From Flavimaribacter sediminis (GTDB taxonomy: Bacteria > Pseudomonadota > Alphaproteobacteria > Rhizobiales > Rhizobiaceae): a stretch of DNA of 64,000 nt. Of the stretch, positions 50,958 to 53,011 are shown in pieces. Position 1 is the first letter of the stretch. The number at the start of each line of letters is the position of its first letter. The notes beneath the pieces were generated by a model. The model did not search any database, was not told where the DNA came from, and saw nothing but the letters and a program-made list of their open reading frames with translations. Location: positions 620,001 to 684,000 of the forward strand of contig NZ_JAICBX010000003.1 in NCBI RefSeq assembly GCF_019492055.1. The letters run 5' to 3'. A program made the translations under genes and the position numbers.

Positions 50958-51980
50958 TCAGTTGTTGAAACCAACCATGTCGACCAGTTCGGAAGCCTTC
51001 TGGCGGTTCTTCGCGATCTCGTCGAGAGGCAGCGGATCGGGATGGATCTCGCCGAAGGATTTCACGATGTCAGACGGTTCGGCTTCCGGATAGACCGGAT
51101 ACTCGAAAACCTGTTCGGCATAGATCTCCTGGGCTTGTGGGCTGGCCAGAAATTCCATGAGCTGGAGCGCCGCGTCCTTGTTCGGAGCGTGCTTGGCGAG
51201 CGCCATGCCGGAAATGTTGACATGCGTTCCCCGAGCATCGGAGTTGGGAAACAGCACCTTGATGGCGTCGGCCCATTCTTTCTGTTCGGGTTCCTTGTCG
51301 TTGGTCATCATCAAACCAACGTAATAGGTGTTGCCGATGCCGAGATCGCACTCGCCGGCATAGATGCTTTTGGCCTGGGCGCGGTCATTTCCGGCGGGTT
51401 TGCGGGCCAGATTGTCTTTGACGCCTTTCAGCCATTCATCGGTCGCGGCCTCGCCATTGTGGGCGATCATCGAGGCGATCAGGCCGATATTGTAGCTGTG
51501 CTGGCCGCTTCGGATACAAATCTTGCCTTTCCATTTCGGATCGGCGAGCTCCTCATAGGTGATCGCGTCCTGCGCGACCCTGTCCTTCGAGGCGTAGACC
51601 ACGCGCCCGCGGGTGGTGACCCCGAACCAGTGGCCGTCCGGATCGCGATACTGCGCCGGTATTGTGGAGTTGATGGCGTCGCTGTCGACGGCTTCGGTGA
51701 CGCCTTCTTCCTTGGCGTTGCTGAGGCGGCTTATGTCGACGGTCAGAATGACGTCGGCCGGAGAGTTCTCGCCCTCGGCTTTCATCCGCTCCACCAGGCC
51801 CTTGTCGAGAAACAGAACATTGGTCTCGATGCCTGTCTTCTCTGTAAATGCGTCCAGCAGCGGCGCGATCAGGTCCGGCTGGCGATAGGAGTAGATATTG
51901 ACTTCGTCCGCCAGGGCGACGCCCGCCGTGGCGGTCGCGAAGGCTGCGCAAAGAATCGTTTTCGTGAAGCTTTTTTTCAT
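50958..51980 (-). CDS. Ferric-iron ABC transporter substrate-binding protein (FbpA/FutA type)
   Basis: 340 residues with a signal peptide (cleavage after VALA). The mature start EVNIYSYRQPDLIAPLLDAF and the tyrosine-containing NTYYVGLMM segment place it in the ferric-iron-binding group (FbpA/FutA1). It would carry Fe3+ in the periplasm to an ABC permease, which is not encoded in this window. It is divergent from rirA, and operator-like palindromes in the shared region suggest iron control. Confidence 0.88.
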   Translation of the reverse strand: MKKSFTKTILCAAFATATAGVALADEVNIYSYRQPDLIAPLLDAFTEKTGIETNVLFLDKGLVERMKAEGENSPADVILTVDISRLSNAKEEGVTEAVDSDAINSTIPAQYRDPDGHWFGVTTRGRVVYASKDRVAQDAITYEELADPKWKGKICIRSGQHSYNIGLIASMIAHNGEAATDEWLKGVKDNLARKPAGNDRAQAKSIYAGECDLGIGNTYYVGLMMTNDKEPEQKEWADAIKVLFPNSDARGTHVNISGMALAKHAPNKDAALQLMEFLASPQAQEIYAEQVFEYPVYPEAEPSDIVKSFGEIHPDPLPLDEIAKNRQKASELVDMVGFNN

Positions 51981-52028
51981 GGCGTTTCCCCTCGGTGATT
52001 TTCCTCACTGCAAAACAGGATAGTGATT

Positions 52029-52077
52029 GTCAATATTGACCGCAACAAAAACAAGATAATCACAATCATGTTATCTT
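52029..52077. promoter_or_regulatory. Candidate iron-responsive operators upstream of the iron-binding protein gene
   Basis: Two symmetric elements: the perfect 12-bp palindrome GTCAATATTGAC (52029-52040) and the inverted repeat AAGATAA-11 bases-TTATCTT (52053-52077). A minus-strand promoter TTGCGG-17 bases-TATCCT overlaps the first. RirA operators in rhizobia are AT-rich TGA/TCA-flanked sites, so RirA is a likely binder, but I cannot match it with certainty. Confidence 0.45.
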
Positions 52078-52142
52078 GGTTCAGAAGAGCAAAAACCCAT
52101 GCAGGGAGGATACCGCCATGGCCCGCTCGTTCGCCTTAAAAC

Positions 52143-52180
52143 TTGACAGACGCAATCTAAATAAATAGAATGATTCTAAA
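52143..52180 (+). promoter_or_regulatory. rirA promoter with Irr-type iron control element
   Basis: TTGACA (52143-52148), a 17-base spacer and TAGAAT (52166-52171) make a near-consensus promoter. Overlapping the -10 is AATAGAA-TGA-TTCTAAA (52164-52180), which closely matches the ICE consensus TTTAGAA-N3-TTCTAAA recognised by Irr in rhizobia; the right half is perfect and the core TAGAATGATTCTA is a full palindrome. Irr would repress rirA under low iron. Confidence 0.75.
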
Positions 52181-52202
52181 TTAGACACAGGTGAGAAGTC
52201 CC

Positions 52203-52667
52203 ATGCGGGTGACCAAACAGACAAATTATGCAGTCCGGATACTGATGTACTGCGCTGCGAATCCTATGGAACTCAGCCGCGTGCCGGAGATCGCGAAAGC
52301 TTACGGCGTTTCGGAACTGTTCCTCTTCAAGATCCTGAAACCGCTGGTGAGAGCCCGGTTGATCGAGACCGTCCGCGGACGAAACGGCGGCATCAAGCTG
52401 GCGCGCCCGGCGGAGGAGATCACCCTCTTCGACGTGGTGCGCGAAACCGAAGACAGTTTCGCCATGGCCGAATGTTTTGAAAACGAGTCCGCCGATTGTC
52501 CGCTGGTCGACAGCTGCGCCCTGAACACGGCGTGGCGGGATGCGCTCAACGCCTTTCTCATGTCCCTTTCGAAACACACGATCGCCGACCTTTCGGCTTC
52601 GCGTTTCGACATTGTCGGACGACTGGGCATTCCGACGGAACAGCCCCTGGCCGCCGCGGCGCGCTGA
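52203..52667 (+). CDS. rirA: Rhizobial iron regulator RirA
   Basis: 154-residue Rrf2-family protein beginning MRVTKQTNYAVRILMYCAAN, nearly the textbook RirA N-terminus. Helix-turn-helix RVPEIAKAYGVSELFLFKIL, then DVVRETEDSFAMAECF. C91, C99 and C105 are exactly the [Fe-S] ligand positions of characterised RirA. With an intact cluster it represses iron uptake genes when iron is plentiful. Start at the ATG 52203; an upstream ATG four codons earlier is less likely. Followed by a terminator at 52677. Confidence 0.95.
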   Translation: MRVTKQTNYAVRILMYCAANPMELSRVPEIAKAYGVSELFLFKILKPLVRARLIETVRGRNGGIKLARPAEEITLFDVVRETEDSFAMAECFENESADCPLVDSCALNTAWRDALNAFLMSLSKHTIADLSASRFDIVGRLGIPTEQPLAAAAR

Positions 52668-52676
52668 CAGGGATTT

Positions 52677-52712
52677 CGCCCCTGCCCGCCTGAGCGCCGA
52701 CAGGGGCGTTTT
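52677..52712 (+). terminator. Rho-independent terminator after rirA
   Basis: CGCCCCTG (52677-52684) pairs with CAGGGGCG (52701-52708) around a 16-base loop and is followed by TTTTCATTTT, ten bases beyond the rirA stop. Confidence 0.8.
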
Positions 52713-52729
52713 CATTTTATGATTTCAGC

Positions 52730-53011
52730 TTAAAGAACCTGGCTGAGCTTCATTGCGACGCCCATATCGCCCTCGATTTTGAGCTTTCCCTGCATGAAGG
52801 CAGCCGTCGCGTCGAGGTCTCCGGCGACGATTGATTCCAGATCTTCGAGGCTGAGACTGATCGTGCAATCGGCGTCCTTGTCTTCCGTGGTGACCGTCTG
52901 GTGGTCGATGACCAGAACGCCATCGTCGCCGCAGTCGAATTTCACGACATTGCTAAAGGAACCCTGCTCTACGCGGGGCCGAATGGTGTCGGCGATATCG
53001 GAAATGCTCAT
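52730..53011 (-). CDS. SCP2 sterol-binding-domain protein
   Basis: 93 residues forming a single SCP2 domain: VVKFDCGDDGVLVIDHQ, then DCTISLSLEDLESIVAGDLD and AFMQGKLKIEGDMGVAMKL, which is the diagnostic C-terminal block. SCP2 proteins bind lipids or acyl-CoA in the cytoplasm. The ATG at 53011 has GAGGAG upstream; a longer frame to 53389 lies antisense to the acyl-CoA dehydrogenase gene and is rejected. Divergent from that gene, fitting a fatty acid role. Confidence 0.92.
   Translation of the reverse strand: MSISDIADTIRPRVEQGSFSNVVKFDCGDDGVLVIDHQTVTTEDKDADCTISLSLEDLESIVAGDLDATAAFMQGKLKIEGDMGVAMKLSQVL

Follow-up and report, generated by a model that had tools for sequence, protein, structure and literature searches.

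Control of rirA by Irr has been published for Agrobacterium and Brucella. In Agrobacterium tumefaciens, rirA is under Irr and is repressed at low iron (Hibbing and Fuqua 2011, as cited in the available text of PMC10374146), and the same partial text reports for Brucella melitensis that Irr binds the rirA promoter, which contains an ICE-box, in an electrophoretic mobility shift assay (EMSA; PMC10374146). RirA has three conserved cysteines according to the review PMC7762939, which places the heme regulatory motif of Irr in organisms that have no global iron regulator besides Irr and in which the motif mediates heme-triggered decay. The Irr proteins of Brucella abortus and R. leguminosarum are described as lacking this motif in the excerpt of PMC3413700, and the excerpted literature on Irr, RirA and the motif does not report a heme regulatory motif in a RirA organism. 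The box presented here is located in front of rirA in a 64-kb stretch of DNA (the window) and thereby extends the circuit known from the two published cases (PMC10374146, available text). Judged from the comparison with its relatives, the Irr-box sequence is genuine and belongs to a circuit already described, and its register on the promoter is unusual among these relatives.

The rirA gene of the window (52203..52667, plus strand) encodes an Rrf2-family iron regulator of 154 amino acids, whose translation exceeds the cut-off of the NCBIfam RirA equivalog (NF008886; 238.4 bits, cut-off 193) and carries Cys91, Cys99 and Cys105, the three cluster cysteines. The nearest named rirA loci stem from Rhizobiaceae (93 and 87% identity) and support, together with the equivalog match, the Rhizobiales affiliation that had been proposed in a preceding sequence-only reading of this DNA. 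Direct reading of the sequence, a promoter scan and comparison with relatives place the two hexamers of the rirA promoter on the plus strand, TTGACA (-35) at 52143..52148 and, after a spacer of 17 nt, TAGAAT (-10) at 52166..52171. With 11/12 matches this promoter is the sole sigma-70-like site in 51900-52900, a region in which 50 shuffles gave a mean of 0.5 such sites. The Irr box (ICE) AATAGAATGATTCTAAA, the presumed Irr operator that was identified by consensus, relatives and matrix, occupies positions 52164..52180 of the plus strand and begins 39 nt 5' of the rirA ATG (52203). It covers TAGAAT and the expected start point, and the overlap with a near-perfect sigma-70 promoter noticed in the earlier reading was accordingly borne out. 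The probable Shine-Dalgarno core AGG of rirA follows at 52189..52191 (plus strand) within ACAGGTGAG, a string that all three genomes sampled from the genus share without change.

On the opposite side of the intergenic region, the gene divergent from rirA (50958..51980, minus strand) encodes an extracellular solute-binding protein (Pfam SBP_bac_6, 79 bits, cut-off 24.6), which matches NCBIfam equivalogs below their cut-offs only. AT-rich inverted repeats at 52012-52081, located before this gene and partly conserved in the genus, possibly represent its operator. The segment 52101-52168 starts with the 16-nt string GCAGGGAGGATACCGC, which does not vary among the three genomes sampled in the genus, and continues with a short ORF of 16 codons (52118-52168; MARSFALKLDRRNLNK) that has a good Shine-Dalgarno sequence and a stop inside the rirA -10. 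A leader peptide was considered for this ORF and rejected. All differences to the two same-genus copies change the amino acid, a comparison made by eye that is a weak test with so few changes, and the ORF, which thus shows no sign of protein selection, was taken as conserved DNA.

The distribution of the box was traced in the family, in which rirA was detected in 287 of 297 genomes (E 1e-40). The 320 nt 5' of rirA were sampled in 90 of these 287 genomes, comprising the 30 best-match loci (among them the window genome and two more from the genus) and 60 others, mostly one per genus. A box with up to three mismatches from TTTRGAANNNTTCYAAA is located within 220 nt 5' of rirA in 85 of the 90 sampled genomes, the window genome counted, and is absent at this threshold from the remaining five. 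At up to two mismatches it is found in 79/90, compared with 17/4500 single-base shuffles of the same regions. Among 40 named Rhizobiales rirA loci, 36 match within three mismatches, some of them weakly or at a distance, and four have no such match. Within the genus, the box is identical at 17/17 bases in all three sampled genomes. Their aligned intergenic regions agree in 173 of 231 columns, and the longest unchanged run, 24 nt, includes the box.

The genome of the window encodes three Fur-family proteins. One of them is Irr (NF045678 IrrA, 228.6 bits, cut-off 150), whose HXH heme site is present as HHH within SDHHHFF and whose gene (L174; G000:C6:802236-802670, minus strand) adjoins an ORF taken by eye for fabA. 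The second protein is Fur-like, its gene adjoining an ORF that resembles by eye a metal-binding ABC protein, and the third is Zur-like; both remain below the equivalog cut-off. In G065, a genome of the family, two extra irr-like genes (C1, 2689370-2690487; L200 and L201) lie side by side, besides the main irr. The conservation of the box in relatives, the encoded Irr and the published binding of Irr in Brucella (PMC10374146, available text) strongly support the presence of an Irr box at rirA, as the sequence-only reading had put it.

Seven of the 14 sites that occur in the genome with up to two mismatches are located in front of genes linked to iron, heme or Fe-S clusters, or between such genes, and one of the seven is the rirA site AATAGAATGATTCTAAA. 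The other six comprise a perfect ICE that precedes the mbfA ATG by 15 nt and ICE-like sites between the divergent genes acnA and ccmA, before sdhC, about 400 nt before bfr with a short ORF in between, 141 nt before ccoN, and 18 nt before the gene of a VIT1-family transporter, a possible further Irr target (gene L014:763-1482, minus strand; site L014:1501-1517). MbfA, CcmA, SdhC, Bfr and CcoN exceed their NCBIfam cut-offs and VIT1 its Pfam cut-off, and AcnA is a partial ORF below the full-length cut-offs. A Bfd gene was suspected before bfr, where Pfam found none. Among the other seven sites, L005 has an Fe-S/FAD oxidoreductase ORF (Fer4_20, Pfam) at a distance of about 400 nt and was excluded from the iron-linked set; the rest are located inside ORFs or beside genes without a visible iron link. 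Eight of the 14 sites recur in a same-genus genome: those at mbfA, bfr and L005 by blastn, those at acnA/ccmA, sdhC, rirA and VIT1 (the last in G002) as an identical string, of which only rirA was traced to the gene, and the ccoN site, from the string match alone, as a string with one difference.

We infer a direct repression of rirA by Irr, and AATAGAATGATTCTAAA is very probably the operator through which it takes place under shortage of iron (heme). When iron is low, Irr free of heme would bind 52164-52180, and the bound protein would block RNA polymerase by covering the -10 together with the expected start point; the resulting fall of RirA would derepress iron uptake. Under sufficient iron, heme would take Irr off the DNA or destroy it, and with Irr gone the TTGACA-17-TAGAAT promoter would fire. 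The RirA made in this way would acquire its Fe-S cluster and repress the uptake genes.

The palindrome might instead be a chance resemblance, generated by the -10 and its flanks in an AT-rich promoter, and the fact that TAGAAT is simultaneously the -10 and a part of the box speaks in favor of such an origin. Compared with TTTAGAANNNTTCTAAA, the Irr box (ICE) consensus with its 7-3-7 inverted repeat, AATAGAATGATTCTAAA has two mismatches, both in the left half-site, and a perfect right half. It is the only site in the 64-kb window within three mismatches of TTTAGAANNNTTCTAAA, but at least one such site occurs in 28 of 100 window shuffles, and the consensus match alone is therefore weak evidence. 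The genome-wide counts of 14 sites within two mismatches (15 for a reversed-pattern control) and 56 within three (113 for the control) do not exceed the control, so single two-mismatch sites prove little. An ICE matrix was also built, with 82 boxes that lie upstream of rirA in genomes outside the genus. The top site of this matrix in the window is AATAGAATGATTCTAAA with 20.06 bits, followed by a runner-up with 12.53 bits, and its score falls between the 10th and 25th percentile of the 82 source boxes. The chance expectation of such a score is about 0.006 per 64 kb, a rough value since only 2 of 20 million random positions reached it, and about 0.00025 in the 222-bp region upstream of rirA at its own base composition. 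This value, the family-wide occurrence of boxes 5' of rirA and the invariance of the box in the genus while its flanks drift render a chance origin very unlikely.

Recognition of AATAGAATGATTCTAAA by a different regulator, i.e. Mur, RirA itself or another Rrf2 protein, is conceivable insofar as the genome also encodes the Fur-like and the Zur-like protein and RirA could regulate its own gene. However, the motif is that of the ICE, which is also found before mbfA, acnA/ccmA, sdhC and bfr, and the rirA promoter is devoid of TGA-N9-TCA, the core of the RirA operator (IRO). The sole copy in 51901-52203, at 51965, lies where the divergent gene begins, and autoregulation of RirA via this element was consequently rejected; we assign very little probability to another regulator as the owner of the palindrome. 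A further explanation accepts AATAGAATGATTCTAAA as an Irr site but holds that Irr activates or merely fine-tunes rirA and that other regulators dominate. It draws on the statement, in the accessible sections of PMC7762939, that the position of the ICE decides whether Irr activates or represses. The location of the box over the predicted -10 is that of a repressor, and the start of the Rhodobacter sphaeroides mbfA transcript within an Irr box was taken as fitting repression in the excerpt of PMC3413700, so that an activating or fine-tuning role of Irr at rirA appears quite improbable.

The repression of rirA by Irr had been claimed to be one half of a reciprocal circuit. The Irr-to-rirA arm of this circuit is well supported, and the opposite arm, in which RirA would act on irr, is weakly indicated: TGA-N9-TCA is present 70 nt before irr in all three genomes of the genus and at -70 in none of the four genomes of the sister genus. 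Any TGA-N9-TCA within 150 nt before the match start was found at 4 of 26 irr loci, compared with 0.85 expected by shuffling; the fourth of these loci belongs to the sister genus and harbors the element at -20 (L180). The 18 other readable irr upstream regions outside the two genera contain no TGA-N9-TCA, with distances that refer to a match start near residue 13-19 and not to the start codon. Locus L199, close to the beginning of its contig, was left out of the count. A scan for the ICE before irr yielded a best site with at least five mismatches.

The position of the box on the promoter was compared for the 85 boxes by recording TTGAC 16-18 nt before the in-box hexamer and TATA or ATAT in the 24 nt that follow the box. 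Because of a second box about 120 nt upstream, toward the divergent gene, L088-L090 were counted by the box nearer to rirA. All seven boxes of the genus and its sister genus (g85) are preceded by TTGAC, with TTGACN at 17-nt spacing retained in all seven sampled genomes; they all have A at box position 4, and none is followed by TATA or ATAT. Among the 78 other boxes, TTGAC precedes a single one (L155), position 4 is G in 69, A in 6 and T in 3, and TATA or ATAT follows in 57, compared with about 13% by shuffling all 85 flanks. The -10 thus seems to be held inside the box in the genus and g85 and to follow the box in most relatives, and since the seven genomes are related, the former arrangement may represent one event, not seven. 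A stricter automatic promoter call on all relatives gave no clear result for most of them, owing to the weakness of their -10 and -35 elements. Under this strict rule the -10 also scores as lying in the box in five regions (L104, L105, L129, L132 and L155) of the 83 from outside the two genera and in Oricola (L057) among the 40 named loci, which means that the arrangement is not unique to the genus and g85. The comparison suggests that the register of an operator on its promoter can shift without loss of the operator itself. The genomes of g85 (L087-L090) harbor a second ICE-like box with 2-3 mismatches about 173-177 nt 5' of rirA, nearer to the divergent solute-binding-protein gene, and at the equivalent place of the window there is no ICE-like site within four mismatches.

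The Irr protein encoded together with this RirA has the N-terminus MHHLTEQKTCPTRFAGDRLRSAGLRPTRQR and contains Cys10-Pro11. Cys-Pro is located 13 residues before GLRPTRQR in 3/3 sampled rows of the genus, 4/4 of g85 and 3/3 of g24, hence in 10/10, and all ten genomes have a RirA over the cut-off. The distance to GLRPTRQR is the same as for GCPWHD in G330, the heme regulatory motif known from Bradyrhizobium japonicum. The sequence here reads CPTR and not GCPxH[DE]; the following His-Asp is absent. Across the family, Cys-Pro at the register of the heme motif occurs in 10 of 68 rows, a non-random set from the 288 family genomes with Irr that comprises 26 rows from named genomes, 22 further best matches and 20 mostly chosen for the N-terminal reach of the match. 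In other families of the order, represented by 60 genomes out of 88 searched, 58 rows were readable by two parsing rules (not G383 and G338). Seven of these 58 contain Cys-Pro, all as GCPxH[DE] and all without a match to the RirA profile at E 1e-40. None of the 15 readable other-family genomes with a RirA-profile match (E 1e-40) has Cys-Pro, but nine of these 15 matches fall below the RirA cut-off and, given that the profile also matches Bacillus subtilis below the cut-off, may be other Rrf2 proteins.

An Irr tree, calculated from the sequence that starts at GLRPTRQR, has 126 rows but few columns, and its bootstrap had not settled; it unites the ten Cys-Pro rows of the family with modest support (82/76) inside the family group (67 rows, 100/97) and places the seven other-family rows in a separate starred group of eight (98/87); three changes are forced by the starred branches. 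This placement apart from the GCPxH group suggests that Cys-Pro was gained separately in the family lineage. By eye, g24 does not have the -10-in-box promoter, and the two traits are thus not fully linked. We regard it as possible, if rather doubtful, that in three related RirA-bearing genera Irr independently gained a Cys-Pro of the heme-regulatory type. Heme ligated by this Cys might then release Irr from the rirA box, or lead to its degradation, in the manner of Bradyrhizobium but in cells that still have RirA. In the same scenario, the box of two of these genera moved onto the -10, where box base 4 (A instead of G) would serve both Irr and sigma-70.

The box before rirA adds to the known iron circuit a lineage on which no study was found. 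Should the Cys-Pro of its Irr bind heme, RirA bacteria, in which heme lowers the affinity of Irr for DNA, and RirA-less bacteria, in which heme triggers the decay of Irr, would not be strictly divided, and the lineage would, if this is true, let both heme modes of Irr be tested in one cell. With the Bradyrhizobium japonicum type of Irr it shares a Cys-Pro 13 residues before GLRPTRQR, the distance read in G330 with its GCPWHD; unlike in that type, the motif is CPTR without His-Asp, RirA is present, and Irr falls within its family in the tree, apart from the GCPxH group. In most sampled relatives the box is followed by a TATA element, whereas the -10 lies inside the box here. The locus resembles Rhodobacter sphaeroides mbfA in the location of an Irr box at the putative transcription start, which was taken there as compatible with repression, and differs from it in the target gene and in the order, described as being without RirA (PMC3413700, excerpt). 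The presence of both regulators, Irr and RirA, is shared with Agrobacterium tumefaciens, and the ICE-box in the rirA promoter, where Irr binding was seen by EMSA, is shared with Brucella melitensis (PMC10374146, available text).
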